Positions 37,455-64,000 of a stretch of 64,000 nt of DNA are shown piece after piece; the first letter of the stretch is position 1, and each line of letters starts with the position of its first letter. The position numbers and the translations under genes were made by a program. Location: contig NC_018227.2 of NCBI RefSeq assembly GCF_000304355.2, positions 2,170,001 to 2,234,000 on the forward strand. The letters are read 5' to 3'. The DNA comes from Methanoculleus bourgensis MS2. Its GTDB lineage: Archaea; Halobacteriota; Methanomicrobia; Methanomicrobiales; Methanoculleaceae. The notes beneath the pieces are model-generated. The model searched no databases, had not been told where the DNA came from, and saw only the letters and a program-made list of their open reading frames with translations.

Positions 37455-37692
37455 GGCCCGGGTCTGCTGGAGGTAAAGAGAAATGTTTTTCATAGCGCGT
37501 GGGTTAATGGTTCCCACGGATACCCGGTGCCGATCCGGTGTCCTGCGAGACTGATCACCCCAGACGAGAAGCATTCACCGACCCACGCCTGAAGTACTCC
37601 AGGTTTCGATATCACCCACTCAAACAACCTCTCTCTCGTTTTCCAGTCAGCGGGAGCGCATGACCCGGGACGGCATCATGGATGTGATGACT
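37455..37692 (+). promoter_or_regulatory. Conserved long 5' leader, copy A
   Basis: Region upstream of the NHL/dockerin gene, related to those at 48.44 and 56.43 kb. Block 1 AGAGAAATGTTTTTC is at 37477-37491; block 2 GAGAAGCATTCACCGACC lies within 37564-37583, about 110 bp before the start codon. The most divergent of the three copies. The 37141-37454 stretch before it holds no supported gene. Confidence 0.6.
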
Positions 37693-43345: not shown

Positions 43346-43350
43346 TACCG

Positions 43351-44282: not shown

Positions 44283-46610
44283 TTATAACTCACTGATCCG
44301 CCCCACAACAACGTACGCAACCTTTGCTGCATCCCCGATGTCGACCACACCGTTCTGGTTAAAGTCGGCAAGGAGATCCTCCGGCACATTCCCGACGACC
44401 ATATACGCGACGAGAGCCGCGTCCCCGATATCCACAAGATCGTTGTTGTTGAGGTCCCCCTTCACCCAAATCGTAAATGCACCGGGAAGCAGTGCTGTCT
44501 TTCCATCGGCATTCCGGACCACGACATCCCATCCCCCGGTCCGGGCCGCCGTGAGATCGAGGGTTGCGGAGACGGTGTTCGTATCGTTACCGCGGACTTC
44601 TGTTGCGATGACGTCCCGGTACCCTTCCCTCTCCAGAAGCACCGTCGCGCCGTCGAAAAACCCGCTGCCGGTAATCAGGACAGTTGCAGAACCATCGCCT
44701 GCAAATACCATATCCGGAGAAATTCCGGTTATGGCAGGGGCGGGCCACCCTGAGTTCAGCAGTTCGAGGGAGGCCGTTGCAGACGCGAACCCTTCGAGTT
44801 CATCCGCCGCCTTTGGCCCCGAGACCGCGTACAGGGTGTAGGTCCCGTTCTCAAGCACTCCTTCAAGGGCTCCGGTGTCCCATACAAACGACCAGTTCCC
44901 GTCCCCTGTAACCGGGACCCGCACCATGCCAGGATCGGCCAGGCCGGCTCCGCCTGCATCAAGACCGGGCCCGGTCATGTAGAGCCATGTGGACTCGTTA
45001 TCGGTGTTTATGCCGCTGAGCGTTACCTCTTCCCCGAAGAAGAAGCGGGCCCGGTCTCCGGCAGTTATGGTGACCGTCCCGGGATTTACAGACACGTTGA
45101 TCGTGTCAGAGAGCGACGGATCTTTCGGGTCGGTAACCGTGACGGTGAACGGCTGTGCGACGGTCGAGAAACCCGTCGCGTACCGGACCCGGGCAGTCCC
45201 CGATTCAGGCATGATCACCCTGCACGCCGTCTCATCAAAACCGGCACTCCCGCTTATCTCCCCGGGCAGAATACCCTGCTGGTCGGGGACGACCATAGGG
45301 TACATGCCGGGATCAGTGAGCCCCGTATCGTTGATAGAGAGCCGGTACTCGCGGTATCCTTCGCCGGTGAGGGTGAGGGTAATGTTCTCCCCGCGGACGA
45401 TGGCTTCGGCGTCGGACTCTATAGTGGGCGGGACAGCCTCCCCGCCGCCCAGGGCAGCGAAAACATTGACCAGCCCGTAACCATACTGAGGATCCTTCCC
45501 CGGAGAACCGAGGTCATCGGCAGTCTCAGTCAGTCGTTTTCGCACCTCAAGATTCGACATGCCCGGATAGCGGGAGAGGAGGAGGGCGGCAACACCCGCG
45601 ACGTGCGGGCAGGCCATTGAGGTCCCGCTCCGCAGGCCATAGGTGTTCCCCGGCGTCGTCGAGAGGATCGACTCCCCCGGGGCGACCAGTTCCAGGTTCG
45701 TCCCGTAGTTGCTGAACGGGCTGCGGAGACCGGTTTTTCCGACCGAGCCGACGGCAATCACGATGTCATACGCCGCCGGGTAGTTGATCAGGTTCGCTCC
45801 GCCGTTCCCCGAGGCTGCAACGAGGATACACCCCTTCTCCCATGCATACCGGCAGGCCTCTTCTACGATACGGGATGGTTCGGCAGCACCCAGGCTCATG
45901 CTGATGACGTCCGCTCCGTTGTCTGCGGCATGGCGGATCGCCGCGGCGGTTAGAGAACTGGTGCCGCTCCCCTTGAAGTCCAGCACCTTCTCCGCCATAA
46001 TGCCGGACTGCGAAATTCCCGCGACACCCAGCGCGTTGTTGCTCACCGCAGCGGCGATGCCTGCACAGTGCGTTCCGTGGCCGTGGTCGTCCATCGGGTC
46101 ATCATCGTTGTTGATCCAGTCGTATCCCCCGGTGATGTAGTTACCCATATCCGGATGGGTATAGTCGACCCCGGTATCGATGACGGCGATGATGACGCTG
46201 CTCTCCCCCCGCTCGATGCTCCAGGCATAATCCGCCCCGATCCCCCCAGGCCCCCACTGCTCGGCATACCGGCGATCGTCGGGCACATAGGCCGGCACAT
46301 CAAGGGCATAGACGGGGATATCGCGTTCGACGAACTTCACGCCCGGGCACTGCGAGACCTCTTCCATGAATCGATCCGGGTCGGAGACCGATACGACCAC
46401 CGCGTCAAGTCCGGTCAGCTCGTCGATGACCCGGACATCCAACGAGGAGAGATCGGCGTCGTCCAGGGTCTGCACCGAACCCTCCTGAAAGCCGATGATG
46501 ATGCGCTCATGCTGCCCGGGATCCGCCGATGCAGAAGTTATACAGAAAGCTATCAGCGTTAAAACCGCTATGAAGCGCAGTGAGAATTGTTTTCGTTCAG
46601 GATATTGCAT
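44283..46610 (-). CDS. Secreted subtilisin-like serine protease with TIG domain and dockerin
   Basis: 775 residues from the ATG at 46610. Signal peptide 1-28; inhibitor I9-like prodomain 30-100 (ERIIIGFQEGSVQTLDD). Peptidase S8 domain about 120-390 with the triad D in IIAVIDTGVDYTHPDM (about 144), H in GHGTHCAGIAAA (about 180) and S in RSGTSMACPHVAGVAA (about 330), all present. Next comes a beta region shared with the DUF3821 protein (about 400-600), an IPT/TIG domain (ITGISPDMVFAGDGSATVLI, about 620-715), and a dockerin (DLNNNDLVDIGDAALVAYMV, DFNQNGVVDIGDAAKVAYVV). The protease would degrade or process surface proteins while bound to a scaffold. Promoter repeats lie upstream. Confidence 0.92.
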   Translation of the reverse strand: MQYPERKQFSLRFIAVLTLIAFCITSASADPGQHERIIIGFQEGSVQTLDDADLSSLDVRVIDELTGLDAVVVSVSDPDRFMEEVSQCPGVKFVERDIPVYALDVPAYVPDDRRYAEQWGPGGIGADYAWSIERGESSVIIAVIDTGVDYTHPDMGNYITGGYDWINNDDDPMDDHGHGTHCAGIAAAVSNNALGVAGISQSGIMAEKVLDFKGSGTSSLTAAAIRHAADNGADVISMSLGAAEPSRIVEEACRYAWEKGCILVAASGNGGANLINYPAAYDIVIAVGSVGKTGLRSPFSNYGTNLELVAPGESILSTTPGNTYGLRSGTSMACPHVAGVAALLLSRYPGMSNLEVRKRLTETADDLGSPGKDPQYGYGLVNVFAALGGGEAVPPTIESDAEAIVRGENITLTLTGEGYREYRLSINDTGLTDPGMYPMVVPDQQGILPGEISGSAGFDETACRVIMPESGTARVRYATGFSTVAQPFTVTVTDPKDPSLSDTINVSVNPGTVTITAGDRARFFFGEEVTLSGINTDNESTWLYMTGPGLDAGGAGLADPGMVRVPVTGDGNWSFVWDTGALEGVLENGTYTLYAVSGPKAADELEGFASATASLELLNSGWPAPAITGISPDMVFAGDGSATVLITGSGFFDGATVLLEREGYRDVIATEVRGNDTNTVSATLDLTAARTGGWDVVVRNADGKTALLPGAFTIWVKGDLNNNDLVDIGDAALVAYMVVGNVPEDLLADFNQNGVVDIGDAAKVAYVVVGRISEL

Positions 46611-46655
46611 GGTTCTTCTCCCCGGGGCAGGGGAACTGATTATCTGGTATATTTG

Positions 46656-46765
46656 CGGATCATCGTATATAGTTTTAGTATGCAGAGCCGCACGGCTGGT
46701 GCTCTGGACAGGCGACGGCGCCCACATCGGATCATCGTATATAGTTTTAGTATGCAGAGCCGCAC
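46656..46765 (-). promoter_or_regulatory. Duplicated TATA-containing promoter region of the subtilase gene
   Basis: Two perfect 38-bp direct repeats, 46656-46693 and 46728-46765 (72 bp period). On the minus strand each holds TACTAAAACTATATACGATG, which looks like a BRE plus TATA box; the nearer copy is about 60 bp from the ATG at 46610. Tandem duplication may give two start sites or two regulator sites. Confidence 0.6.
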
Positions 46766-47103: not shown

Positions 47104-48184
47104 ATGTACGTGATCACCCGAAAGCAGATCGCCATAGTCGTTGCTCTCATTGTAGGCATAACACTTGCCGCACCGGCGGCCGCGATAGAGGGACAGAACA
47201 GCATTGCCGTCTCGGTTGCGCCGGTCAATCCGGATTTCCTCGCATACCAGAATGCCACGGGAGAAACCATGCTGGCCTCATCTGAGGAGGGAGGCGTGCG
47301 TCCGCCCGGTCCGGTTTGATACAAACACTTCGACCAAGGCCGGGACGTATACCTTCGAGGTGATCGACTGGGCCGATGCTTCACGGTCTGCCACTCCCGG
47401 TGAGCGTGGAGCAGGGGGCAGTCACCATCGTGTACTCTGCCGATGAAGAAATAATCTTCTCGGGTACAAATACCGACGGTGCGACGACATACCTCTTCGT
47501 TACGGGACCGGGGCTTGCCGCGAACGGCGTGAGACTCGATGACGTAGCCATACCCGGCGTAACCAAAGATGCCGGTACGTTTACACGGGTGGAGGTTGAA
47601 CTGGACGATACGTGGGAGTACCGGTGGGATACCGGTACCTGCGGCCTCCCCCCGGCGGAGGCACCTACACCATCTATGCCGTCGCGACGCCCAACGCCAG
47701 GGACGATCTGGCCGATGCTGTGTATGGAACTGCCTCTGTCACACTGAGGGGCGAACCGGGTCCGACAGCCGGCTTTACCGCGAACACCACCGCCGGCCCC
47801 GCGCCGCTCGCGGTGCGGTTCACCGACGCTTCGACCGGGGAGATCACCGCCAGGTCCTGGTCCTTCGGGGATGGGAACACCTCCAGTGAGCGGGACCCGG
47901 TGCATACCTACAGGGCGCCGGGGAACTACACCGTGAACCTCACGGTCAGCACCGGAAGCAGCTCGGACACGCTCTCCCAGCCCGGCTACATCACCGTCAC
48001 GGTCAAGGGCGACTTTGGAGGGGACGGTGAGGTCGATATCGGTGATGTCTCGAGGGTGGCCTACATGGTCGTCGGGAAGACGGCGGTCGACCCTGCCGCC
48101 GACTTCAACGGGAACGGCGCAGTCGACATCGGGGATGCGGCAAAGATCGCCTACTACTTCGTCGAGAAGATTGAAGCGCTGTGA
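47104..48184 (+). pseudogene. Degraded secreted DUF3821-like PKD-dockerin protein
   Basis: The ATG at 47104 starts a clear signal peptide (KQIAIVVALIVGITLAAPAA) and mature IEGQNSIAVSVAPVNPDFLA, but the frame stops at about 47318. Further parts in other frames read RFDTNTSTKAGTYTFEVIDW, then SVEQGAVTIVYSADEEIIFS, GGGTYTIYAVATPNARDDLA, followed in one open frame by PKD (FTDASTGEITARSWSFGDGN) and a full dockerin (DFGGDGEVDIGDVSRVAYMV, DFNGNGAVDIGDAAKIAYYF) to a stop at 48184. Three or more frameshifts and a large internal deletion show loss of the gene. The intact C-terminal dockerin is an open donor for recombination. Confidence 0.8.
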
Positions 48185-48709: not shown

Positions 48710-50410
48710 ATGATGAAGCGGATACTCCCTCTCGTGGTTCTTTTTGTACTGGTAGCGATGGTGCCGGCGGCGGTGGCGGCGGAAACACCGGTGGGCACAG
48801 ACTTCCCGGAGCGGGTTCCGGTCGATGTTCTGCTTACGGAGATCCCGGAAGAAGAACTCTCTGACTCGATACTGTCTTTCGGTGGCGGAGATTTTACCGG
48901 AAATTGGACGCAGGTCTATGCAGGCGACGGATGGCCGGGCCCCGATCACAGTAGCGTCGTGTTGCCCGACGGCAGCATCGTGGTGATGGGTGGTTGGAGG
49001 CAGACCTTCGACAGCTGGACGAATGATGTCTGGCGATCGACGGATAACGGCACAACGTGGACGTTGATGACCGACAATGCCGAGTGGAAGAGACGAATGG
49101 GCCACAGCAGCGTTGCTCTTCCCGACGGCAGCATCGTGCTGATGGGCGGGTGGAGCTACGGCTATGATAGTGACGTGTGGCGATCGATGGATAACGGCGC
49201 AACGTGGACACTGATGACCAACAATCCCGGGTGGGGGGGACGATATAGTCACGCCAGCGTCGCGCTCCCCGATGGCAGCATCGTGCTGATGGGCGGTTCT
49301 ACCAGCGGCGACAATAAAGACGATGTCTGGCGATCGACGGACAAAGGCGCAACGTGGACGCGAATGAACGCAAGTGCCGGATGGTCGGCACGGTACGAGC
49401 CCAGCGCCGTGGCACTCCCCGATGGCAGCATCGTACTGATGGGAGGTCGGGAAGGAAGTGACGAGAAGAATGATGTGTGGCGATCGACGGATAACGGCGT
49501 AACATGGACGCAGATGACCACAGGCGCCGAATGGTCCCCACGATGGGACCACAGCAGCGTTGTGCTTCCTGACGGCAGCATTATGCTGACAGGCGGTTAT
49601 AGCAGCGGCAGAAAGAATGATGTGTGGCGATCGACAGATAACGGCGCAACGTGGACGCAGGTGACCGCGAGCGCAGAATGGTCGCCACGAGAGGGTCACA
49701 GCAGTGTTGTGCTTCCTGGCGGCAGCATCGTGGTGATAGGTGGCTTTGACGGCGGTTCTGCAAATGATATCTGGCGATCGGCGGACAACGGCACAACTTG
49801 GTCGCTGGTATATCAGGGTGCCGGATGGAGGGGACGATATGGTCATAGCAGTGTTGCGCTCCCCGATGGCAGTATCGTACTGATGGGGGGGCTGAGCGGC
49901 GGCTCCAAGAACGACGTCTGGCGATCGACAGATAGAGGCACAACATGGACGTTGATGACCGCGAGCGCTGAATGGTCGCCACGATATAGACACAGTAGCG
50001 TTGCACTTCCCGACGGCAGTATCGTGCTGATGAATGGATATAGTGGATGTAATGACGTGTGGCGATCGACGGACAACGGTAAAACCTGGACTCAGGTGAC
50101 TGCGCATAGTGGCCTTGAGTGGGGCCACAGCAGTGTCGCGCTTCCCGACGGCAGCATCGTACTGATGGGCGGTTACTGTTCCAATGAAGTTCATCGTTCG
50201 ACGGACAAAGGAGCAACATGGAAGCAGATAAACGCGAGTTCCGGGTGGTCCGCCACGATATGGCCACAGCAGCGTTGCACTTCCCGACGGCAGCATCGTA
50301 CTGATGGGGGGGCGGAGCGGCGGCTCCAAGAACGACGTGTGGCGGTCGACGGACAACGGTGCGACATGGACCCAGGTGGCCGCGGATGCAGGGTGGTCGG
50401 CACGACATGA
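48710..50410 (+). CDS. Secreted kelch-like propeller protein, N-terminal part of a frameshifted giant gene
   Basis: 566 residues from the ATG at 48710 (next Met follows). Signal peptide RILPLVVLFVLVAMVPAAVA. Nine visible repeats of about 55-57 residues, each with HSSVALPDGSIVLMGG, NDVWRSTDNGATWTQM, similar to kelch/BNR-type propeller blades. At about 50250 the repeat sequence goes out of frame by one base, and the last 50 residues are nonsense. In the next frame the same repeat pattern continues at 50304, so the original gene probably ran from 48710 to 56294 (about 2500 residues). As it stands, this part would be secreted as a propeller without dockerin. Confidence 0.78.
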   Translation: MMKRILPLVVLFVLVAMVPAAVAAETPVGTDFPERVPVDVLLTEIPEEELSDSILSFGGGDFTGNWTQVYAGDGWPGPDHSSVVLPDGSIVVMGGWRQTFDSWTNDVWRSTDNGTTWTLMTDNAEWKRRMGHSSVALPDGSIVLMGGWSYGYDSDVWRSMDNGATWTLMTNNPGWGGRYSHASVALPDGSIVLMGGSTSGDNKDDVWRSTDKGATWTRMNASAGWSARYEPSAVALPDGSIVLMGGREGSDEKNDVWRSTDNGVTWTQMTTGAEWSPRWDHSSVVLPDGSIMLTGGYSSGRKNDVWRSTDNGATWTQVTASAEWSPREGHSSVVLPGGSIVVIGGFDGGSANDIWRSADNGTTWSLVYQGAGWRGRYGHSSVALPDGSIVLMGGLSGGSKNDVWRSTDRGTTWTLMTASAEWSPRYRHSSVALPDGSIVLMNGYSGCNDVWRSTDNGKTWTQVTAHSGLEWGHSSVALPDGSIVLMGGYCSNEVHRSTDKGATWKQINASSGWSATIWPQQRCTSRRQHRTDGGAERRLQERRVAVDGQRCDMDPGGRGCRVVGTT

Positions 50411-53400
50411 GCACAGCAGTGTCGCGCTTCCCGATGGTAGCATTATCCTGATAGGCGGAGAGCATAGCTCCAACTTCGGCTATCTAAATGACGTGTGGCG
50501 TTTTGAATCGCCCCTGGCGTTTTCTTATCTGAACGCCTTATTCGGATCGGACACGGAAACCGGCACAGCCCCGCTCACCGTCCGGTTCACCGATACCTCC
50601 ACCGGATCGCCGACCTCGTGGTCGTGGGACTTCGGCGACGGGGAGACAAGCACCGACCAGAACCCGGTTCATATCTACAAAAATCCGGGGGAGTACGATG
50701 TCAGCCTTACAGTGAAACGCGGCAGCGCATCGGACTCCATAACAAAAGCAGGATTGATTATCGTCAACGAACCGAATGCCGGGTTAAATATTGACCTTGA
50801 GTACCGGAACAGTATCCAGTTTAACAGTATGGATCCGGTGGAGGTCAGGGTTCGCACAACCGACAGCAACGGAATGCCTAAGGCATCAACCATCACTATG
50901 ATGGGAACCGGAGAGGCCTCGGTTAAGGTTCATGCAACCGAGTACACGTACTCATTTGTACCGGAGCATTCGGGTACCTATAGGGTCGCAGTGATTGCGG
51001 TCTCGGATGATGGTATAGAGTTGTCGAAGAGAGTGACGATTGAAGTCATCGACGACCTCTCGTTCGCCAAAAAGCGTGCTGATGATCTGAAATCCCTGGC
51101 AAACACCGAGATCGATCAGGCGGAAAGAATGGCGGCCGAGCGGTCGGTTGATCTTGCTAAAGACATGTTCCTAGATAACCTTCTTGATGCCGAAGGAGTC
51201 TCGTCGACAATAACCGTGTTCTTTGATGGGGCTTCTCTTCTTGTCACAGATGTATTCCGCAGCACCGTCGGAGACCTCTCCGGCGAGTATGCCAGGTATT
51301 TCTGCGGGTATCTGAAAAACCAGGTAGAGGGAAAATGCTCTGACATGATGGGAGATGCAATCTTCGGTGACGATGACTCGTATCTCGTAAACTCGGCATC
51401 GACAGGTATCGAAAATCTCTGCAAGGTTAAGGAAAGGCGTGACGCATTAGACCAAACGACAGAGAACTTCGTCGGGTACATCGAAGCGAACCCGGATCAA
51501 TTCAGAGACAACGACCAGGTCAATGCATACATCAACATGTACTCGTCCGGAATAAAAAGCGCCGTCGAAACCCACGATGTCGTGCACGTTACGATCTGGT
51601 CGAGATCTTTTGGCTATTCGTACCCGGAGGCATACTATCTCTATGACACATTCAGCAAGAACAGCAAAATCATGAAACTGGCGTTAGGCACGGCAATCGG
51701 TGTCGGAGCGGTTGTAGCGGTGACAACCGGAGTCGGTGCAACCGTCGTTGCGGCGCTCATCCCGGCGACCATGACCATCATCAAATCGGTCTCCTCATTT
51801 GACACCTTTGCCTCAGTAGCGTTATCGATCCTCTTGGTATCCAATGTCCCTATCATCGCAGATGATGTTGTACACGAGCACCAGAACAGTATTTCAGGAA
51901 TAGAACGTGCTCTCTCAGGCACATCTGCAGATTTTGTCGCGCTCTCCGTATCGGACGTCTCCGCAGGGGAGACAGCATCTATCACGTCTTCGGGAGATGT
52001 ATTTATCATCAGGCCGTCCGGGAGGGTTGAAACAATACTCCTGGGTGGCGGGCATTATACCCCAACGGGTTCGGGAATCTACAAGGCATATTCCTATAAC
52101 CATGGCAACGGTCTCTTCTCGCAGATCGAAGGATGTGACATCGCCGTCAAAGTCCCTGACGTAGAGGTCAATGCCACATACACCACCGCGGGAGACCTCG
52201 CGTCGATACGCGTCATGGCCGAAAACCACGAGGATTCTTCAATCGACGACATGTACCTGACCACGTCGGTATCGGATAGCGATGGAAACCTCATACATTT
52301 GTATGATGAGCCGTTCGATCTCGGTCCGCTCCAGAACGCAACATATGAGTATGAAATGGATGCTCCTGAACTCAATACCTTCTATGTTGCAGAAACCATA
52401 CTCTCGGTCAACTACTCGACGGTTCTCGACAGTGTAAGTTTCATCATCGAGACCGAAGGAAGCAACGAGGCTGAAAAGGCGGTCATCCTCTCTGTCGACA
52501 GTCCTCAGGTCTTCCTGTACGGCAAAGACATCTACATCAACCTTACCATCAGAAGCTTCAAGGATGCATTGCCGATAACCCTGGAGATTCCGGAGTTCAA
52601 GTACTCAACAACGGAATACATAACCGGTGAAGAGGTCGTTCAGGTTGTCCTGCCGGGACAGGAGCCGGACGACTATATAGCGCCGATATATCTCTACGGT
52701 AGCGACGGTAGCACGTGCGATGCCGACGTTATCAGGTTTACTGTCCAGGCTGAAGGAACAGGTTTTCTCTCGATAGAAGCCGGTGATGCTCTGTTCCCGG
52801 CAGGTGAGATCATCACTATCCCGCTCGTCTTTACCGATGCCGCGCTGAACAATCTGGATGGAGAAGTCTTTGTTCAGGTGAGAACCCCTGAGAATGAGGA
52901 CATTGATGCAACAGTTACTGGAAGCAACGGCAACTACCAATTCTCTTTCACCCCTCCCGTGAGCGGAACCTATAGCGCCATCGCTGAGGCCTATAAAGAT
53001 GGCTATTACGTCTATGGCGATCAGGTAACGTTCATTTCCGGGGAGATGAGTCCTCTTGAATTGGGTGTTGGAGCTGATGAGGAGAACCTCTATGTCAACG
53101 TAACGGCGAATGGTCTGCCAGTCAATGCGAATGTAACGATGACCTCAAATGGTACAGAGATTGCGAAAACGGCAGTATCCGGCATTGCAGCATTCCCGAA
53201 AGAAGGGAGCTACCGCCTGACGGCCGAAATGCTGTTCTTTACGCCGACTGAGTTCAGCCACATGACCCCTGAAGCCCGGTTGTCTTTAGAGAACAACCGG
53301 ACGATCCCGGATCGAGCTGTCGTCTTCAATGCATCGGCATCCCACGATCCCGACGGATGGATCGCGGAATACCGCTGGGACTTTGGTGACGGTCACCAAG

Positions 53401-56294
53401 AGACGACAACCTCGGGATATACGCTCCATCCGTTCAATGCCACCGGCTACTATACGGTGAATCTTACAGTCGTCGATAACGATGGATTGGGTTCATCGGT
53501 CACCCGGGATATTATCGTCATCGAAAGGAGCACCCCTGCGTTCGATATTTCGGAAAAGAGCATTTATGTGAATTATACAGGTGACGTTTCGATTCAAGCT
53601 ACTGACCTCGACGAGATCTCCTGGTTGAGAATGGTTATCGAATTTGATCCGAACATCGTAGAAGGAATTGATGTCGCTGAAGGGGATATTACACTTATTC
53701 CCTCTAGCATTGCAAATGGAGGGGTAATCATAGAATCCGGTGCCATCGAATCGCTCTCGGGATCTGCTAATCTTGCATCCATCACACTTAAAGGAGTGAA
53801 TGAAGGCTGTACAACAATCAATATCACTGCTGTCTGCAGAGATGTGGATGGCTGCTTAATCAGACCCATTGCTTCAGGGAATACAATACAGGTCTTATCT
53901 GGAACACCTCTCCTCGCAAATTTTACCACCAGTAACTCTATAGGTACTGCCCCGCTCGCTGTCCAGTTCACCGACACCTCAATCGGGGATCCGACCGCTT
54001 GGATATGGGACTTTGGTGATAATGGAACGTCAAACGAGCAGCACCCGGTTCATACCTACAAAACTGCAGGTAATTATACAGTAAGCCTGACTGCAAAAAA
54101 CGCCGATTATTCTAACACAATCCTAAAACAAGATTATATTACAATCAAAGAACCGCCAGCCTATGCATTTGTAAAATCGTGGGGGTCGGGTGGCTCGAGT
54201 GATGTGGAGTCATTCTCCTATCCTACTGGCATTGCAACTGATGCCACAGGGAATGTCTACGTGGCGGACTATTCGAATCACTGTATCCGGGTTTTTAACA
54301 GCACAGGTGATTATGTTGCAACGTGGGGATCGTATGGTTTCTGGAACGGACAGTTCGATAGACCGACCGGCATCGCGACTGATATATCCGGCAACGTCTA
54401 TGTCTCGGACTACTACAATCACCGCATCCAGAAATTCGATAGCACAGGTGCTTTCCTTACGACATGGGGAGCTTATGGGACCGGCAACGGACAGTTCGAC
54501 AAGCCATGGGGCATCGCGGTCGATGCTGCCGGGGATATCTATGTGGCGGACTATAACAATCACCGCATCCAGAAGTTTGACAGTGCCGGAACATTCGTCA
54601 CAGCATGGGGTTCGAAAGGCTCCGGCAGCGGTCAGTTCAATGGTCCAATCTGTATTGCCGTAGATGCAGCAGGCTATATCTATGTATCTGACGACTACAA
54701 TAATCGCGTCCAGAAGTTTGACAGTGCCGGAACATTCATCACCGCATGGGGATCAGAAGGAACCGACAGCGGTCAATTTAGTTCCCTTGTTGGTATTGCG
54801 GTTGATTCAGCCGGGCATGTTTTCGTTGTGGACCACCTGAACTGCCGTATCCAGAAATTTGATAGTTCTGGCACTTTCATCTCTACATGGGGGTCCAAAG
54901 GTTCCAGTGATGGGCAGCTCAACAATCCTTCAGATATAGCGATTGATACAGCAGGGAACATCTATGTAGCGGATACCTATAACAACCGCGTTCAGAAATT
55001 TGACAAGTCTGGAAATTTCATGAGAAGGTGGGAGTCGTGGCACACTGGTGAAATTAAGTTCCTTTACCCGGCTGGTATAGCGACTGATACGGTTGGGGAT
55101 ATCTATGTGGCGGACTATTACAATCACCGTGTCCAGAAATTCGACAGTTCTGGGGCTCTCATATCCATGTGGGGATCGTACGGTTCCGGCAACGGACAGT
55201 TCGATAGACTGACTGGCATCGCGACTGATATATCCGGCAACGTCTATGTCTCGGACTACTACAATCACCGCATCCAGAAATTCGATAGCACAGGTGCTTT
55301 CCTTACGACATGGGGAGCTTATGGGACCGGCAACGGACAGTTCGACAAGCCATGGGGCATCGCGGTCGATACTGCCGGGGATATCTATGTGGCGGACTAT
55401 AACAATCACCGCATCCAGAAGTTTGACAGTGCCGGAACATTCATCACAGCATGGGGTTCGGAAGGCTCCGGCAGCGGTCAGTTCAATGGTCCAATCTGTA
55501 TTGCCGTAGATGCAGCAGGCTATATCTATGTATCTGACGACTACAATAACCGCGTCCAGAAGTTTGACAGTGCCGGAACATTCATCACCGCATGGGGATC
55601 AGAAGGAACCGATAGCGGTCAATTTAGTTCCCTTGTTGGTATTGCGGTTGATTCAGCCGGGCATGTTTTCGTTGTGGACCACCTGAACTGCCGTATCCAG
55701 AAATTTGATAGTTCCGGCACTTTCATCTCTACATGGGGGTCTGAAGGTTTCAGCGATGGACAGTTTTACAGACCTTCGGGTATTGCGCTTGATTCGGCTG
55801 GAAACGTCTATGTAGCGGATACCTATAGTAACAGAATTCAAAAATTTTCACCCTCGCCCACCAAACTACCTGTAGCAAATTTCTCTGCTAACAAAGTGAG
55901 TGGTCCCGCCCCACTTACGGTACATTTCATTGATACCTCTGCAGATTATCCGAGTGCATGGTTATGGGACTTTGGTGATGGTACCAGCTCTATTGAGCAG
56001 AACCCGGTTCATACTTATCTGGCTTATGGAAACTATACCGTTAAACTAACTGTGAGCAACATCTTTGGCGCTGATTCGCTCTCAAAAGAAGGTTTCATAT
56101 TTGCAAAGCGTGTAAAAGGCGACTTCAACGGGAACGGCGCAGTCGACATCGGCGACGTCGCCCGGGTGGCCTACATGGTCGTCGGGAAAGAGCCAGCAGA
56201 TCTTGCCGCCGACTTCAACGAAAACGGCGCAGTCGACATCGGGGATGCGGCGAAGATCGCCTACTACTTCGTCGGGAAGATAGGGGAACTCTAA
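50304..56294 (+). CDS. Giant multidomain surface protein: kelch-like blades, PKD domains, cohesin-like domain, NHL propellers, dockerin (C-terminal part)
   Basis: 1996 residues, continuing the frameshifted gene upstream and therefore lacking its own signal peptide. Rough order: two kelch-like blades (1-65); PKD (75-157); Ig-like (160-250); a long helical region (250-560) with two hydrophobic helices (about 460-520); several beta domains (560-1000); PKD (1000-1072); cohesin-like domain (1077-1204; EISWLRMVIEFDPNIVEGID, SGSANLASITLKGVNEGC); PKD (1205-1283); 12 NHL repeats (1290-1850); PKD (1852-1935); dockerin (1937-1996). One protein thus holds both cohesin-like and dockerin modules, so it could chain complexes together. 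The NHL section is a duplication of six repeats. Confidence 0.8.
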   Translation: MGGRSGGSKNDVWRSTDNGATWTQVAADAGWSARHEHSSVALPDGSIILIGGEHSSNFGYLNDVWRFESPLAFSYLNALFGSDTETGTAPLTVRFTDTSTGSPTSWSWDFGDGETSTDQNPVHIYKNPGEYDVSLTVKRGSASDSITKAGLIIVNEPNAGLNIDLEYRNSIQFNSMDPVEVRVRTTDSNGMPKASTITMMGTGEASVKVHATEYTYSFVPEHSGTYRVAVIAVSDDGIELSKRVTIEVIDDLSFAKKRADDLKSLANTEIDQAERMAAERSVDLAKDMFLDNLLDAEGVSSTITVFFDGASLLVTDVFRSTVGDLSGEYARYFCGYLKNQVEGKCSDMMGDAIFGDDDSYLVNSASTGIENLCKVKERRDALDQTTENFVGYIEANPDQFRDNDQVNAYINMYSSGIKSAVETHDVVHVTIWSRSFGYSYPEAYYLYDTFSKNSKIMKLALGTAIGVGAVVAVTTGVGATVVAALIPATMTIIKSVSSFDTFASVALSILLVSNVPIIADDVVHEHQNSISGIERALSGTSADFVALSVSDVSAGETASITSSGDVFIIRPSGRVETILLGGGHYTPTGSGIYKAYSYNHGNGLFSQIEGCDIAVKVPDVEVNATYTTAGDLASIRVMAENHEDSSIDDMYLTTSVSDSDGNLIHLYDEPFDLGPLQNATYEYEMDAPELNTFYVAETILSVNYSTVLDSVSFIIETEGSNEAEKAVILSVDSPQVFLYGKDIYINLTIRSFKDALPITLEIPEFKYSTTEYITGEEVVQVVLPGQEPDDYIAPIYLYGSDGSTCDADVIRFTVQAEGTGFLSIEAGDALFPAGEIITIPLVFTDAALNNLDGEVFVQVRTPENEDIDATVTGSNGNYQFSFTPPVSGTYSAIAEAYKDGYYVYGDQVTFISGEMSPLELGVGADEENLYVNVTANGLPVNANVTMTSNGTEIAKTAVSGIAAFPKEGSYRLTAEMLFFTPTEFSHMTPEARLSLENNRTIPDRAVVFNASASHDPDGWIAEYRWDFGDGHQETTTSGYTLHPFNATGYYTVNLTVVDNDGLGSSVTRDIIVIERSTPAFDISEKSIYVNYTGDVSIQATDLDEISWLRMVIEFDPNIVEGIDVAEGDITLIPSSIANGGVIIESGAIESLSGSANLASITLKGVNEGCTTINITAVCRDVDGCLIRPIASGNTIQVLSGTPLLANFTTSNSIGTAPLAVQFTDTSIGDPTAWIWDFGDNGTSNEQHPVHTYKTAGNYTVSLTAKNADYSNTILKQDYITIKEPPAYAFVKSWGSGGSSDVESFSYPTGIATDATGNVYVADYSNHCIRVFNSTGDYVATWGSYGFWNGQFDRPTGIATDISGNVYVSDYYNHRIQKFDSTGAFLTTWGAYGTGNGQFDKPWGIAVDAAGDIYVADYNNHRIQKFDSAGTFVTAWGSKGSGSGQFNGPICIAVDAAGYIYVSDDYNNRVQKFDSAGTFITAWGSEGTDSGQFSSLVGIAVDSAGHVFVVDHLNCRIQKFDSSGTFISTWGSKGSSDGQLNNPSDIAIDTAGNIYVADTYNNRVQKFDKSGNFMRRWESWHTGEIKFLYPAGIATDTVGDIYVADYYNHRVQKFDSSGALISMWGSYGSGNGQFDRLTGIATDISGNVYVSDYYNHRIQKFDSTGAFLTTWGAYGTGNGQFDKPWGIAVDTAGDIYVADYNNHRIQKFDSAGTFITAWGSEGSGSGQFNGPICIAVDAAGYIYVSDDYNNRVQKFDSAGTFITAWGSEGTDSGQFSSLVGIAVDSAGHVFVVDHLNCRIQKFDSSGTFISTWGSEGFSDGQFYRPSGIALDSAGNVYVADTYSNRIQKFSPSPTKLPVANFSANKVSGPAPLTVHFIDTSADYPSAWLWDFGDGTSSIEQNPVHTYLAYGNYTVKLTVSNIFGADSLSKEGFIFAKRVKGDFNGNGAVDIGDVARVAYMVVGKEPADLAADFNENGAVDIGDAAKIAYYFVGKIGEL
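54345..55740. repeat. Internal duplication of six NHL repeats (846 bp offset)
   Basis: Sequence from about 54345-54893 recurs almost identically at 55191-55739. The offset of 846 bp is exactly six repeats of 47 codons. Differences are scattered single bases. The flanking NHL blades are less alike, which suggests a recent tandem duplication or gene conversion. Confidence 0.8.
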
Positions 56295-56424: not shown

Positions 56425-56714
56425 TCAAGCGAGGAGTCCTTTAGCGAGAGCAGTTTTGATAAAAACGGGTTCACCACTTCAGTGATAACAGAGAAAGGTT
56501 TTTCCCTACCTGAAGATTAGTATTGTGCACAGCCAGATAGCCGATCCGGCATCACGAGGGAATGACTTTCCCGATCGAGAGGCGTTCATCGACCATCGCA
56601 GCCATCCCGACATCCGGGCACCCCGACACCCCGACACCCCTGCTTCGCTTCCCCTTCTCGACTCCCGGGCAGGCAGGAGCTCGCCGGCAGGATCGGTGTC
56701 GCGGATGCGTGGTC
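56425..56714 (+). promoter_or_regulatory. Conserved long 5' leader, copy C
   Basis: Upstream of the SBBP gene. Block 1 GAGAAAGGTTTTTC at 56491-56504; GATAGCCGATCCGGCATC near 56537; block 2 GAGAGGCGTTCATCGACC within 56574-56593, 122 bp before the start. GCAGGAGCTCGCC near 56682 matches copy B. A CCCCGACAC repeat near 56620 is unique to this copy. Confidence 0.7.
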
Positions 56715-59700
56715 ATGATGAAGCAAATTCTCTCTCTCGTGGTTCTTATTGTACTGGCAGCGTTGCTGCCGGCGGCAGCGGCGGATACAGGAACAGGTGG
56801 TGCATCCCCGGATTCTCTTGAGATTGGTGACGGGGCGAACAACCGACTTCTCAGTTTGGGTTTCATCCCGAACGTCGGGCAATACGATCCCGGGGTGGAT
56901 TACGTCCTGCACTACCAGGACACGACGGTCTTCTTTATGAGAGACGGACTTGTGCTGGCCCATACCGCAGGGAGTGCCGAGAACGTCTCAAGAGACGTTA
57001 TCCGGCAGTCGTTTGCCGGTGCATCTCCGGAGACGCATCTTGCGGCAAGGGATCAGCGTGCGGGGGTCGTGAACTACTACGTCGGAAACGATTCGTCGAA
57101 GTGGCTGAGCGGTATCCCGGTCTACTCCGAGGTCGTATACGAAGACCTGTATCCCGGGATCGACCTCGTGTATGCCGAGAAGAACGGCAGGCTGAAACGG
57201 GAGTTCCGCATCTCCCCCGGCGCGGACCCTTCACAAATCGAACTGCTCTACGAAGGAGAGAGCGAGCCTTATGTGGATGGGGACGGCGTGCTGCGGTTCG
57301 CATCGCCGGCAGGGGAGATGCTCGAGAGCCCTCTCGTCTGCTGGCAGGTGATCGGCGGGGAGAAGGTCGACCGGGTCGCGGAGTACGTCGTCGATGACGG
57401 ATCGGTTCGTATCGCGGTGGCGGAGTATGACGCCGGGCATGAGTTGATCGTCGACCCCGAACTGGTCTACTCGAGTTATCTGGGTGGTGGAGAGGGAGAT
57501 TACGGATACGCCCTTGCGGGTGACGGTGATGGAGGGGTCTGGGTCACGGGGTATACGGCCTCTCCCGACTTTCCGGTCCTGGACGACTCCGATGGGAAAT
57601 CGGGTCACACTGCTTTCGTTTCCCACTTCGCATCAAACGGCACCCTCCTCTCATCGACCTGCCTGGGTGGAGCGCGTTCTCTGGGTGGAACGCGTTCTGA
57701 TTACGGACACGTCCTTGCGGGTGACGACGAGGGAGGGGTCTGGGTCATAGGGACGACGGGCTCTGACTTTCCGGTCCTGAACGCATCCCAGAGCGCCTAC
57801 GGAGGTGATGGGGATGTCTTCGTCTCCCACTTCTCGTCGTCCGGCACCCTCCTCTCATCGACCTACCTGGGTGGAGGAGGGATTGAACTCGACAATGCCC
57901 TTGTGGGTGACGGCGACGGAGGGGTATGGGTCGCGGGGCTTACGACCTCAACCGACCTCCCGGTCACGGAGGATGCATACCAGAGCACCTATGGAGGAGG
58001 TTCTGGTGATGCCTTCGTCTCCCACTTCTCATCGACCGGTGCTCTCCTCTCCTCGACCTACCTGGGCGGAGAGAATTATGATTACGGATCGGCCCTTGCG
58101 GGTGACGGCGCCGGTGGCGTCTGGGTTATGGGGGGTAACCAATATGGCGGTTTCCCGGTCCTGAACGAATACCAGAGAACCAACAGCGGGGGGTGGGATG
58201 TCTTCGTCTCCCACTTTTCGTCGTCCGGCACCCTCCTCTCCTCAACCTACCTCGGCGGATCGGATCACGATGACGGATCTGCCCTTGTAGGTGACGGTGA
58301 CGGAGGTGTCTGGGTCACGGGGGAGACCCTGTCATTGTACGTGCCGGACTCCTCCAAGGGCTTCCCGGTCCGGAACGCATCCCAGCGGACCAACGGAGGA
58401 GGGTACTTTGATGCCTTCGTCTCCCACCTCTCGTCGGAGGGCGCTCTCCTCTCATCGACCTACCTGGGCGGAGACGAACATGATTCCGGGTATGCCCTTG
58501 CGGGTGACGGTGACGGAGGGGTCTGGGTCACGGGACGTACACGCTCTGCCGATTTCCCGGTCCGGAACGCACACCAGAGCGCCTACGGGGGAGGATTCTC
58601 ATATGGCGATCGCTTCGTCTCCCACTTCTCGTCGGAGGGCGCTCTCCTCTCCTCGACCTACCTGGGTGGAGAGGCGGATGATTGTGATGGAGATAAAGGA
58701 AGAGAAGATGATCACCGGTATACTCTTGTGGGTGACGATGCTGGGGGGGTCTGGGTCACGGGAAGTACAGCCTCTACCGCCTTCCCGGTTCTGGACGAAT
58801 ACCAGAGCACCAACGGAGGAGGGTGGGATGCCTTCGTCTCCCACTTCGCGTCTGACGGCGCTCTCCTCTTATCGACCTCCCTCGGCGGAGATGGTGATGA
58901 TCATGGGCGTGCCCTTGCGGGCGACGGTCATGGAGGGGTCTGGGTCACGGGGTATACGGGATCTCCCGGTTTCCCTGTCCTGAACGCGTACCAGAGCAGC
59001 TACGGAGGGAGTAGCGATGTCTTCGTCGCGAAGTTCGGCATCGACGATCCGGTGCCGGTACATCCACCAACCGCAAACTTCACCGCGAACGTCACTGCTG
59101 GCCCGGCGCCGCTCGCCGTCCGGTTCACCGACACCTCGACCGGGGAGATCACCGCGTGGTCATGGGACTTCGGGGATGGGAACACCTCCAGTGAGCGGGA
59201 CCGCGTTCATACCTACACCACCCCCGGCACCTACACCGTCGCGCTCACGGTATCAAACAGCCATGCGGAGGACACGATGAGAATGGAGCACTACATCCAG
59301 GTGCAGAAACCGCTTCCAAGCGCCGAACTCATCTTCAACGTCAACTACAACCGCGGTACATCCAATGACAGTATTGCAAGCGGCACATCTCCCTGCAGCC
59401 TGGCGTACTACACAAGTGTTCACAACCCCCAGGAAAACCAGGAGAGTATCCTCGGCGACCTCGTGTTTGTCCTCGATGCGCAGGAGATTGTCAGCGTCAG
59501 CTCCGGGACGTGCGCGGAGATCAACGGGACGCAAGTAACCTGGACTATCCCCTCTCCGGCCGCGATCAGCCCGGGTACGGGGTCATCGACCTCGGCAGCG
59601 ACATCGGCGACTGCAGACCAGAGCTCAGGCGTGACGCTGGAACGCTCTTGCAACAGGACCGTCTTCACCGAGGCGGGCGTGCAGCAGGTCACCCTGAACA

Positions 59701-60557
59701 TCACCTTCGATACCATCGACCTCGACAACCTCTGGGGCAGGATCATGTGCACCGAGACCGACGACGTCCGGCCCACAATTGTCCCGGGCACGATCTCGAC
59801 CGACCTCCCTCTCCGCGGCCTCAGTGAAGAGCGTGCAGGAGTCTATTTTGGGGTCAACCAATCCGCGATTGAAACCGGCCGGCAGTATACCCTCTCCTGT
59901 GCAGTGGAAGTCGACCCCCTCCGACCGGTGGCCTTTGCACCCGCCTGTGCGATCTGGGAAGTCCGGAACTCGACGTCGGTGGCTGCCCCTGCGGGAACCG
60001 CAGTGACCATCCCTGCGGAGCTCCTCCCGGGGAACGTCAGCAGCGTTGCATTCTCCTCGGCGACCCCCTGTGAGTGGACGTGTATCCAGAACGAGCACAT
60101 CATCACCAGTCTCTATCAGCGGGCCGTCCCGGCGCCGTCAGCAAACTTCACCGCGGACGTCACGAGCGGCCCCGCGCCGCTCGCGGTGCGGTTCACCGAC
60201 GCTTCGACCGGGGAGATCACCGCCTGGTCCTGGTCCTTCGGCGACGGAAACACCTCGACGGAGCAGAACCCGGTCCACACCTACACCGCGCCGGGGAACT
60301 ACACCGTGAATCTCACGGTCAGCACGGAAGATGGCTCGGACACGCTCTCCCAGCCCGGCTACATCACCGTTACGGTCAAGGGTGATTTTAACGGGAATAA
60401 TGAGGTCGATATCGGCGACGTCGCTCGGGTGGCCTACATGGTCGTCGGGAAGACGGCGGCCGACCCTGCCGCCGACTTCAACGGGAACGGCGTAGTCGAC
60501 ATCGGGGATGCGGCAAAGATCGCCTACTACTTCGTCGAGAAGATCGAGGCGCTGTGA
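56715..60557 (+). CDS. Secreted SBBP-repeat protein with two PKD domains and dockerin
   Basis: 1280 residues from the ATG at 56715. Signal peptide 1-25 (ILSLVVLIVLAALLPAAAAD). A DUF7948-type N-terminal domain about 30-245 (LGFIPNVGQYDPGVDYVLHY). Eight SBBP propeller repeats about 250-770 (SSTYLGG, ALAGDGDGGVWVTGYT). PKD about 788-865; an unclassified beta domain about 865-1135 with several Cys; second PKD about 1140-1220 (FTDASTGEITAWSWSFGDGN); dockerin 1222-1280 with DFNGNNEVDIGDVARVAYMV and DFNGNGVVDIGDAAKIAYYF. No frame damage. The propeller probably binds polymer or protein ligands at the cell surface; the dockerin recruits it to a cohesin. Confidence 0.92.
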   Translation: MMKQILSLVVLIVLAALLPAAAADTGTGGASPDSLEIGDGANNRLLSLGFIPNVGQYDPGVDYVLHYQDTTVFFMRDGLVLAHTAGSAENVSRDVIRQSFAGASPETHLAARDQRAGVVNYYVGNDSSKWLSGIPVYSEVVYEDLYPGIDLVYAEKNGRLKREFRISPGADPSQIELLYEGESEPYVDGDGVLRFASPAGEMLESPLVCWQVIGGEKVDRVAEYVVDDGSVRIAVAEYDAGHELIVDPELVYSSYLGGGEGDYGYALAGDGDGGVWVTGYTASPDFPVLDDSDGKSGHTAFVSHFASNGTLLSSTCLGGARSLGGTRSDYGHVLAGDDEGGVWVIGTTGSDFPVLNASQSAYGGDGDVFVSHFSSSGTLLSSTYLGGGGIELDNALVGDGDGGVWVAGLTTSTDLPVTEDAYQSTYGGGSGDAFVSHFSSTGALLSSTYLGGENYDYGSALAGDGAGGVWVMGGNQYGGFPVLNEYQRTNSGGWDVFVSHFSSSGTLLSSTYLGGSDHDDGSALVGDGDGGVWVTGETLSLYVPDSSKGFPVRNASQRTNGGGYFDAFVSHLSSEGALLSSTYLGGDEHDSGYALAGDGDGGVWVTGRTRSADFPVRNAHQSAYGGGFSYGDRFVSHFSSEGALLSSTYLGGEADDCDGDKGREDDHRYTLVGDDAGGVWVTGSTASTAFPVLDEYQSTNGGGWDAFVSHFASDGALLLSTSLGGDGDDHGRALAGDGHGGVWVTGYTGSPGFPVLNAYQSSYGGSSDVFVAKFGIDDPVPVHPPTANFTANVTAGPAPLAVRFTDTSTGEITAWSWDFGDGNTSSERDRVHTYTTPGTYTVALTVSNSHAEDTMRMEHYIQVQKPLPSAELIFNVNYNRGTSNDSIASGTSPCSLAYYTSVHNPQENQESILGDLVFVLDAQEIVSVSSGTCAEINGTQVTWTIPSPAAISPGTGSSTSAATSATADQSSGVTLERSCNRTVFTEAGVQQVTLNITFDTIDLDNLWGRIMCTETDDVRPTIVPGTISTDLPLRGLSEERAGVYFGVNQSAIETGRQYTLSCAVEVDPLRPVAFAPACAIWEVRNSTSVAAPAGTAVTIPAELLPGNVSSVAFSSATPCEWTCIQNEHIITSLYQRAVPAPSANFTADVTSGPAPLAVRFTDASTGEITAWSWSFGDGNTSTEQNPVHTYTAPGNYTVNLTVSTEDGSDTLSQPGYITVTVKGDFNGNNEVDIGDVARVAYMVVGKTAADPAADFNGNGVVDIGDAAKIAYYFVEKIEAL

Positions 60558-60830
60558 GGGGAGGGTATCCCCGACCCCCTCCCTCCTGCGCAACAATCCC
60601 GGCGGCCCGGATTTCCACCGTGTTGTGGGCGGAGCTGTTGTACCCAAACTTCCGGATCTCTGCCCGGCCGCCGGGAGTGAGTCTACTCCCGGTTCGTCAT
60701 ATTATCACCGCTTTCCGTGTTCTTTGAATATTCCGTCGTATTACCGCCAGCAGGCTCTCTGATCCTGTACACACAAAACACAAGTATAATGGTGCATAAA
60801 ACCGAAAACGAACATCAGTGAGGTTGATAA

Positions 60831-61604
60831 ATGAGATTTCCCACCCTTCTAGCATGCTGCCTGGCGGTATGCATGCTGGCTGGAAATGCGAGTGCAGAAA
60901 CCCGGATTATGATCCCGGAAGGCTCCTTTGAGGGCACCGCCGACCTTCCCGTCATCATCTCCGGGATCACAGCGGCGACTGGTGTGTCGTTTGAACTGTC
61001 CTACGACAAAGACACTGTCCGTATTGAGAGCATCACCGCGAGCAGCGAGATCCCGGGCTCGAACGTAATACCCAGGATCGACAACGATGCGGGGTATGCG
61101 AAGGTAGCCGTCACCAACACGGAGGGGATCTCCGCCGCAGAGTCGGCCTCTCTTGCCGTCATCCGGTTCACCCGCGTCGGGTCCGGCGAGGGCACCGTGA
61201 CCATCCAGAACCCCCAGTGGAGCGATACGCAGTTTGTGGCGAACAACTTTGATGTCGTTCTCGACGGAAACATCGTCTCCCTGGAGATTGTGACGCCGGC
61301 GGAAACCGCCGCATCGTCTTCCAGCTCAGGGGGCTCCTCATCATCATCCAGCGCTTCTATAGCGACCCCGACCTCTGAGCGTACTGTGACTCCTGCGGTC
61401 ACCGCAACCGTCCCCCGGGCAACCACCGTGCTGCCGGTATCTTCGAATGATACCGCCGAAACCCCCCCTGCCGTATCCCCGGGTACAACCACAGAGAGTA
61501 CGCAACCGCCTGTCACCCCGAAGGCGGCTCCGGGATTCTGTATGGCGACGGTTTTTACAGCGGGGCTTTCAGGCATCGCGCTTCTGCTGTATCGCCGCTC
61601 CTGA
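60831..61604 (+). CDS. Single cohesin-domain protein with PGF-CTERM-like cell-surface anchor
   Basis: 257 residues. Signal peptide 1-22 (TLLACCLAVCMLAGNASA), cohesin domain about 24-150 (LPVIISGITAATGVSFELSY, YAKVAVTNTEGISAAESASL, LAVIRFTRVGSGEGTVTIQN), a Ser/Thr/Pro-rich stalk 155-230, and a C-terminus APGFCMATVFTAGLSGIALL with LYRRS, which has the PGF motif, helix and basic end of archaeosortase substrates. The RBS GAGGTTGAT precedes the ATG, with a TATA-like AAGTATAAT about 50 bp upstream. Likely the membrane receptor that holds dockerin proteins on the cell surface. Confidence 0.88.
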   Translation: MRFPTLLACCLAVCMLAGNASAETRIMIPEGSFEGTADLPVIISGITAATGVSFELSYDKDTVRIESITASSEIPGSNVIPRIDNDAGYAKVAVTNTEGISAAESASLAVIRFTRVGSGEGTVTIQNPQWSDTQFVANNFDVVLDGNIVSLEIVTPAETAASSSSSGGSSSSSSASIATPTSERTVTPAVTATVPRATTVLPVSSNDTAETPPAVSPGTTTESTQPPVTPKAAPGFCMATVFTAGLSGIALLLYRRS

Positions 61605-62038: not shown

Positions 62039-64000
62039 ATGAAGAAGTATTTACTGACATTGTTACTCTTTGCACTCTGCATGCTGGTTACGGCCGCAGG
62101 TGCTGCATGGATCGAGGCGCCGGGATCATACCCGAAGGTAGTCGTGCCCGCGGGCTCGACCGGGGTCTTTCCGGTCTCCGTCGGCGGTCTGACAAACGCT
62201 GAAGGGGTTTACTTTAACCTGACGTTTGACAACACCCTGTTGTCGGTCGAGAGTGTCTCGGCCAATGACGCAATCCCGGGTTCCAGAGTAACTGCAAACA
62301 TCAATAACGAAAGTGGATGGATGCAGGTGGCCGTCACGAACACGGAGGGCATAACCGTTGAGGAACGTACCCCGCTTGTCGATATCACGTTCCGTTCTAC
62401 CGGGATCGAGGGAGAGTCGCCACTGCAGTTTGTGGGGACCATGGGATACAACTCGACGTACAGTCAGGGGTTCGAGCTGGAGGAGTTTTATGGTGCATAT
62501 AGCGGAACGATCAGGGTTGTTGAATCTCCCTCAACGATCCGGGCCCCCTCCGGCACGCTGGCCTCGGGGCAGTCCAAAACCCTTGCCGTCGGCGTGGACA
62601 ATCTCACCGGTGCAAAGCAGATCTGGTTCGAACTGATGTATGACGGATCATACCTCATCATCGATGATATCCAGCCGGCACTGCTGGGGGCAGTGATAAC
62701 CGGGGCCTTCGCCAATAACGGCATTCACGAATTTGAACCGACCGCTCTTGAGTCCGTGCCCGAGGAGGTACGCCTGGAATTACAGCAGCATCCCCACATG
62801 AACATGATGTGGGTGGAACTGGAGATCCCGGGCGGCCTTACTACTACGGGTTACACCGATGTAGTTGATATCACGTTCCGACCAACCAACCGTACCGGTA
62901 CCGGCGATCTCGATTTCTACTACCGTTGTACGTACCAGGATGAAAATGAGTCGACACAACTCTTCGATATTCAGATCCCCGGCCAGATCGTAACCAACGG
63001 CGGCGGCAAGTATCCGGTCCTCGGCGAGTTCCAGGCCCCGTCGGGCACCATCGATGTCGGATCGCAGAAAGTGCTTCCCCTCATGGTCCGATCCCTGGAC
63101 AACGCAGAAGGAGCGTATGTCTGGGCTGGGTGGAACTCTGCCATAATAAATGTCACATCGGTATCCCTGAACGCAACCGCACAGGCTGCCGGCGTGACGC
63201 TTGAGGGGAGTGGCATCCATTCCGATGTGTATGACAACATCTCGACCGGGCGTCTGTATGCCTATGTCGAGAACCTGACGAAACTGAACACGGCGTCATG
63301 GACCCCTCTTCTCGACCTCACGGTGAGGGCAAACGCCAATTCTGGCCGGACCCCGGTGGACATCTGGGGGACTGCATACATAATTCCCCGGGAGAACGTC
63401 TCCATCGTTTACCCGCCCGCTTCGCTTGAGAACGGGCAGATCTCCATCACTGTTCCGGAGAAGGCGGACCTGAGAGGTAACCTTGTCCCCTGGCCCGATT
63501 ACGTGAAGAAGTATGCCGACGGCAGCCTGCATTTCACCCAGACAATGGTCATCGAGAACACCGGCAATAAGGCCGTCACCGAGGATTTCGACATCCGTGG
63601 GACATTCTGCTCGAAAGAGGCAGAATTCCCTGTCTCGGGCGGCATTGCTCCAGGGGAAAACATCACCTATCACGTGACGATGCACGTCAAACCCGACCAC
63701 GAAGGAGGTACACGCATCAGCATGATCGGCGGCCAGGAGCATGAGCGACGGTATGATGTCACCACACGCGGAGATGTCCAGACGGGTAACCACACCATCG
63801 CGCTCCAGATCGATGTCAACGACGTCATCGATGAGATTGATAAGGATAACAACTACGTGGAGGCAGACGTAGTGGTCACCTATCCGGACCTGGTTCCGGT
63901 CTGGAAGATGGAGTATGTCGGTGGACCATCGTCAAGCAACACCACCATCCTTGACACGTCACATGCCCCCGGCACCTGGAAGATCACGTTCGGGGCAGAG
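62039..64000 (+). CDS. Multi-cohesin scaffold-like secreted protein (3' end outside window)
   Basis: Open from the ATG at 62039 to the window end: 654 residues and no stop. Signal peptide 1-23 (YLLTLLLFALCMLVTAAGAA). Three consecutive cohesin-like modules at about 24-160 (LTNAEGVYFNLTFDNTLLSV, MQVAVTNTEGITVEERTPLV), 161-320 (APSGTLASGQSKTLAVGVDN, KQIWFELMYDGSYLIIDDI) and 323-474 (APSGTIDVGSQKVLPLMVRS). Then a CARDB-like adhesion module, about 476-615 (HFTQTMVIENTGNKAVTEDF), and the start of another (618 on, PDLVPVWKMEYVGG). The N-terminal module is closest to the cohesin at 60831. It would bind several dockerin proteins. Modules 2 and 3 are more divergent. Confidence 0.85.
   Translation, partial: MKKYLLTLLLFALCMLVTAAGAAWIEAPGSYPKVVVPAGSTGVFPVSVGGLTNAEGVYFNLTFDNTLLSVESVSANDAIPGSRVTANINNESGWMQVAVTNTEGITVEERTPLVDITFRSTGIEGESPLQFVGTMGYNSTYSQGFELEEFYGAYSGTIRVVESPSTIRAPSGTLASGQSKTLAVGVDNLTGAKQIWFELMYDGSYLIIDDIQPALLGAVITGAFANNGIHEFEPTALESVPEEVRLELQQHPHMNMMWVELEIPGGLTTTGYTDVVDITFRPTNRTGTGDLDFYYRCTYQDENESTQLFDIQIPGQIVTNGGGKYPVLGEFQAPSGTIDVGSQKVLPLMVRSLDNAEGAYVWAGWNSAIINVTSVSLNATAQAAGVTLEGSGIHSDVYDNISTGRLYAYVENLTKLNTASWTPLLDLTVRANANSGRTPVDIWGTAYIIPRENVSIVYPPASLENGQISITVPEKADLRGNLVPWPDYVKKYADGSLHFTQTMVIENTGNKAVTEDFDIRGTFCSKEAEFPVSGGIAPGENITYHVTMHVKPDHEGGTRISMIGGQEHERRYDVTTRGDVQTGNHTIALQIDVNDVIDEIDKDNNYVEADVVVTYPDLVPVWKMEYVGGPSSSNTTILDTSHAPGTWKITFGAE

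Follow-up and report, generated by a model that had tools for sequence, protein, structure and literature searches.

How is a small cohesin protein, encoded among the dockerin genes of a methanogen, held to the cell, and which proteins does it hold in turn? Cohesins and dockerins have been described from archaea, and the literature still asks what they do beyond cellulosomes (PMC5244752, PMC9012536). In the window, the whole stretch of 64,000 nucleotides analyzed here (positions 2170001-2234000 of a finished genome consisting of one contig of 2,789,774 bases), an intact ORF on the plus strand encodes such a protein of 257 aa. We favor, with a probability of about 0.65, a surface-anchoring cohesin that would display the dockerin proteins encoded next door. 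A small protein with a single cohesin, a stalk, and a membrane tail whose gene lies among those of its probable dockerin ligands is unusual, yet it is made of known parts.

A cohesin-dockerin gene cluster

Genome scans yielded three PF00963 (cohesin) matches, at 2230936, 2232135, and 2238783, along with seven for PF00404 (dockerin); all but one of the latter lie between 2209817 and 2237861. All three cohesin matches and these six dockerin matches fall within one cluster of ~30 kb (2209817-2238944). A local dockerin profile adds a subtilase to the dockerin set. This arrangement supports the original prediction that the cohesin adjoins the genes for its likely dockerin ligands. The genes concerned and the parts of the cohesin gene, in window coordinates, are as follows.

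37660..40038, plus strand: protein with NHL propeller, PKD, and a dockerin of a different class
43342..44115, plus strand: PKD and dockerin protein
44283..46727, minus strand: subtilase with C-terminal dockerin
47612..48184, plus strand: short ORF with PKD and dockerin
50304..56294, plus strand: dockerin protein with Kelch-like and NHL propellers and PKD
56562..60557, plus strand: dockerin protein with DUF7948, SBBP propeller, and two PKD
60820..60824, plus strand: GAGGT as ribosome-binding site, 6 bases upstream of the ATG, read from the sequence
60831..61604, plus strand: single-cohesin surface protein, 257 aa (ORF, PF00963 match above cutoff, orthologs)
60831..60896, plus strand: signal peptide, residues 1-22, expected cut after ASA (recognized by eye; residues 3-21 form a hydrophobic window)
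60897..61292, plus strand: type I-like cohesin, residues 23-154 (PF00963, AlphaFold model, PDB match 2XDH)
61293..61526, plus strand: Ser/Thr/Pro-rich stalk, residues 155-232, 78 residues (composition)
61530..61538, plus strand: PGF tripeptide, residues 234-236 (sequence; fails the PGF-CTERM models)
61539..61601, plus strand: hydrophobic helix and RRS tail, residues 237-257 (Kyte-Doolittle, orthologs)
62040..64000, continuing to genome position 2237909, plus strand: TED protein with cohesin, CARDB, alpha-2-macroglobulin TED with GCPEQ, and C-terminal dockerin

The TED protein (L005:1937-7909 in the genome) is a secreted protein of ~1956 aa, in which GCPEQ is a thioester-like motif. It is followed by a gene for a 260-aa protein (L005:7919-8701, genome positions 2237919-2238701) with a stalk and a membrane tail that lacks PGF. 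The N-terminal domain of this protein has no Pfam match; its model (pLDDT 78.8) has cohesins as the nearest structures (2XDH, Z-score = 11.3; Foldseek E-value 2.3e-4), and we consider it a predicted cohesin. Further downstream, a 1043-aa protein matches cohesin weakly at its N-terminus and likewise carries a membrane tail without PGF. With the 260-aa protein counted on the strength of its fold result, the cluster comprises at least four cohesin proteins, and membrane tails are present on three. The original description of a minimal receptor is too narrow, as the cassette encodes no fewer than three cohesin proteins besides the 257-aa one, of which two have membrane tails. In the genome G018, the same four cohesin-cluster genes are found in the same order.

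Domain architecture and predicted fold

The order of parts proposed at the outset, namely, signal peptide, single cohesin, Ser/Thr stalk, and PGF followed by a helix and Arg, was confirmed by the intact ORF, the PF00963 match (27.1 bits against a gathering cutoff of 24.1 in the protein scan and 29.8 bits in the genome scan), and composition. The stalk contains 44% Ser and Thr and 14% Pro and varies in length and sequence between orthologs. In the hydrophobic tail, CMATVFTAGLSGIALLLYRRS, the segment after PGF reaches a best 19-residue Kyte-Doolittle mean of 1.89 and terminates in RRS; the arrangement of PGF, transmembrane helix, and basic C-terminal end is thus present in the sequence. Pfam and NCBIfam scans of the 257-aa protein detected no match to an SLH domain or an LPXTG anchor. 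A possible lipobox (LLACC) in the signal peptide was rejected by eye, the n-region having five residues and a Leu standing two positions before the Cys. Scanning of the gene flanks for promoters and terminators, with a scan that lacks archaeal promoters, gave none above chance.

A sequence search against solved structures returned a weak cohesin match (E-value 0.42), so that fold comparison was required. An AlphaFold2 model of the cohesin, built from an alignment of 17 related domains, is all beta, with a mean pLDDT of 94.6 and a pTM of 0.87, and has the cohesin jelly-roll fold. The top Foldseek match in the PDB was 2XDH, a non-cellulosomal cohesin from Archaeoglobus fulgidus (E-value 1.6e-10, TM-score 0.82), and the remaining top matches were likewise cohesins; VIA-align superimposed the model on 2XDH with a Z-score of 17.5 and an rmsd of 2.3 over 125 residues. 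By profile and predicted fold, the domain at residues 23-154 is a real cohesin. It shares this archaeal cohesin fold with 2XDH at 18% sequence identity. The A. fulgidus cohesin was shown to bind its dockerin, whereas the window cohesin is a predicted binder; in A. fulgidus, the cohesin gene also adjoins a gene encoding both a cohesin and a dockerin.

Orthologs and selection

A search of 232 genomes of Methanomicrobiales with a cohesin profile identified 11 genomes, that of the window and 10 others, with scores of at least 146 bits; the next score, across a gap, was 98. Orthologs at 74% and 66% identity back the coding status of the gene, as do the pN/pS values of the cohesin. The pN/pS values against G013 were 0.33 for the cohesin, 0.61 for the stalk, and 0.44 for the tail, and those against G018 were 0.55, 0.52, and 0.31, respectively. 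Purifying selection acts on the whole 257-aa protein, tail included, which agrees with a working membrane anchor. Non-cellulolytic archaeal cohesins were once called an enigmatic vestige, in the title of Bayer 1999 as cited in PMC9012536. For the cohesin studied here, a vestigial or decaying domain devoid of function is highly improbable, given the intact ORF, pN/pS below 1 in all regions, and conserved neighbors.

All orthologs whose 3' end is intact have a stalk that leads into a hydrophobic tail with basic residues; the ortholog in G219 is cut off. The motif that precedes the helix varies, being PGFG in G035 and G060, PGFC in the window gene and G013, and SGFS in G018, and PGF is absent from the tails of five orthologs (G010, G030, G039, G064, and G105). 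The PGF motif is accordingly not conserved across the orthologs. In the cohesin tree, the orthologs lacking PGF form one group (support 99/98), and those carrying it fall in two places connected by long branches. We also observed that the contig G219:C288 (L134), binned to another family, encodes a cohesin and dockerins nearly identical to those of G018, a member of the genus of the window; it is perhaps a misbinned contig or a recent transfer.

The C-terminal tail and archaeosortase A

In substrates of archaeosortase A (ArtA), PGF occurs together with a hydrophobic domain and basic residues (PMC7157517). In the Methanospirillum hungatei PGF-CTERM S-layer protein, a proline-rich spacer is thought to reach the membrane (PMC11641113). 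With ArtA substrates such as the Haloferax S-layer glycoprotein and Methanospirillum Mhun_2263, the window protein has in common a stalk or spacer, PGF, a helix, a basic end, and ArtA in the genome, but its tail scores below both curated profiles and the motif is not conserved among its orthologs. The archaeosortase that the original prediction requires is encoded in the genome (TIGR04125, 314 bits, C1:2307343-2308125), as are genuine PGF-CTERM proteins elsewhere (e.g., 1680925-1681002, 38.6 bits). The expectation of a tail that passes the PGF-CTERM profile failed, there being no match to TIGR04126 or PF18204 even at permissive thresholds; the description "PGF-CTERM-like" is fair for the letters (PGF at residues 234-236, helix, RRS) and does not extend to these models.

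These models are themselves weak on clear PGFG tails. Both are short; TIGR04126, with a cutoff of 24.5 bits, gave 19.3 bits for G060 and 21.7 bits for G035, and PF18204, with a cutoff of 18.8, gave 10.6 and 15.2 bits for two orthologs whose PGFG tails are clear. Failure against the profiles is therefore compatible with ArtA processing. We built a local tail profile from 10 PGF tails, leaving out a misaligned PGL tail. On this profile, the window tail scored 10.1, G013 11.0, and G018 7.4, compared with -0.4 to 9.1 for tails lacking PGF and 26.5 to 32.9 for three other cohesin proteins with clear PGF tails. When the end of the stalk was shuffled and the helix kept, the score of 10.1 was reached in 522 of 20,000 trials. 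Of the genomes examined, all 13 with a completeness of at least 90% have ArtA, also where the ortholog lacks PGF, and ArtA is present in all five genomes with PGF-less orthologs; its presence is thus no predictor of the motif.

Two readings of the tail can be set against each other. If it were a true PGF-CTERM signal, ArtA would cut at PGF and a lipid would replace the helix. Apart from ArtA itself, this reading is favored by the correct placement of PGF before the helix and Arg, by its retention in G013 despite changes at other tail residues, and by the full PGFG tails of G035 and G060, which are distant orthologs from another family; in addition, a PF00963-matching protein in G077 has a PGF tail above the TIGR04126 cutoff. 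The missing matches to both curated models, a local score of 10.1 against up to 9.1 for PGF-less tails and 26-33 for clear PGF tails, the loss of the Pro in G018, and the five PGF-less orthologs in genomes with ArtA tell against it, and we consider ArtA processing of the 257-aa protein, judged from its sequence, a minority possibility. Alternatively, PGF is incidental, and the product would be a membrane protein of the ordinary kind that has a helix at its C-terminus and is never acted on by ArtA. The neighboring 260-aa and 1043-aa cohesin proteins, with their PGF-less membrane tails, fit this second reading, as do the substitution in G018, the absence of the motif from five orthologs, and the shuffling result; the position of PGF exactly at the border of stalk and helix, its persistence in G013, and the full motif in orthologs of another family do not. 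We give this second reading even odds.

The apparent sorting-enzyme tag of the 257-aa protein is degenerate, and this, together with the loss of the motif in orthologs, argues that ArtA is unnecessary; anchoring is apparently independent of it. Among orthologs with an intact 3' end, the stalk and the hydrophobic, basic tail are always present despite changes in the motif preceding the helix. This counts in favor of a helix-held anchor, and it is most likely the C-terminal helix that holds the protein. The ortholog tails, from PGFG through SGF to none, form a natural series for studying the requirements of ArtA and the circumstances in which it can be dispensed with.

A genuine combination of a cohesin with PGF-CTERM exists in Methanomicrobiales and is clearer elsewhere than in the window gene. 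The protein from G077 mentioned above (G077:C168:12632-12958, L090) matches PF00963 with 24.3 bits, and its tail scores 31.5 bits on TIGR04126. A literature search of incomplete coverage found no description of cohesin and PGF-CTERM in one protein.

Candidate dockerin ligands

Five dockerin proteins of the cluster (43342-44115, 47612-48184, 50304-56294, 56562-60557, and, on the minus strand, 44283-46727) have closely similar dockerins, with 66-90% identity to the first, which suggests that one docking module may have spread recently onto propeller, PKD, and subtilase proteins. The pattern of this upstream class is GDFNGNG-VDIGD-...-VDIGDAAKIAYYFVGKI. Searching the same 232 genomes with a profile of the class, we found scores of at least 70 bits in 17 genomes, comprising 10 of the 11 with an orthologous cohesin and 7 of the 221 without (Fisher p = 2e-12, a value that ignores shared ancestry and rests on a threshold drawn after the list had been seen). 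Within the genus of the window alone, the class was present in 4 of 5 genomes with the ortholog and in 4 of 30 without (Fisher p = 0.006, with the same post hoc threshold and kinship again ignored). In the exception, G030, the subtilase ORF runs off the contig, and the counterpart subtilase in G010 bears a dockerin of the class. In G035 and G060, dockerins of the class are spread around the genome, away from the ortholog. This co-occurrence supports a pairing of cohesin and dockerin class; the seven genomes that have the class and lack the ortholog count against it. Among the candidate ligands scanned, which are propeller and PKD proteins and the subtilase, there were no polysaccharide-degrading enzymes.

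The adjacent TED protein complicates the assignment, as its own cohesin might bind the same dockerins, and its dockerin could be the ligand instead. The latter case would give a chain running from the anchor cohesin to the TED protein and, through the cohesin of the TED protein, to the dockerin proteins. The TED protein is kept beside or near orthologs of the anchor cohesin in several genera (G018, G035, G039, G064, and G010), mostly with both cohesin and dockerin. Its dockerin, however, differs widely from one genome to another (30-82 bits on a single model), and the DAAKIAYY dockerin class follows the distribution of the anchor cohesin more closely; we regard the chain as rather unlikely.

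Proposed role and relation to known systems

As a surface anchor, the 257-aa protein would be exported by Sec with removal of its signal peptide, and the C-terminal helix and Arg, as judged from sequence and conservation, would halt it in the cytoplasmic membrane. The Ser/Thr/Pro stalk may carry the cohesin into the S-layer and out through it, or farther, where clustering and co-occurrence suggest that it would capture secreted propeller, PKD, and subtilase proteins bearing dockerins of the upstream class. The tail would either be kept as a transmembrane helix or be cut by ArtA and exchanged for a lipid. One compact cluster of a finished methanogen genome combines the anchor cohesin with its likely ligands and a dockerin class to match, which makes binding and display testable with few recombinant domains.

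The likeness to OlpA and ScaE of cellulosomes lies in an envelope-fixed cohesin that holds dockerin proteins. Anchoring cohesins of this type use SLH domains or sortase, whereas the window protein has a C-terminal helix and a degenerate PGF, no SLH domain, and no cellulases among its candidate ligands; by analogy, it may work like an anchoring scaffoldin that dispenses with SLH domains. ANME archaea, which are related to methanogens, likewise have secreted proteins with cohesins and dockerins, but their scaffoldin-like proteins contain up to five cohesins (PMC9012536), in contrast to the mostly single-cohesin anchors and the TED protein of the window cluster. More speculatively, Methanomicrobiales might possess an archaeal counterpart of cellulosome anchoring, in which interchangeable tails (PGF-CTERM or a plain helix) on a conserved single cohesin would display dockerin proteins of the same class and the TED adhesin-like protein, perhaps for contact with syntrophic partners; we hold this as a tentative idea.

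Shorter single-cohesin membrane proteins also occur. The contigs G180:C202 and G046:C9 (L093, L096) encode stalkless proteins of 182-196 aa that adjoin dockerin or cohesin genes, and one of these has PGL where PGF would be expected.
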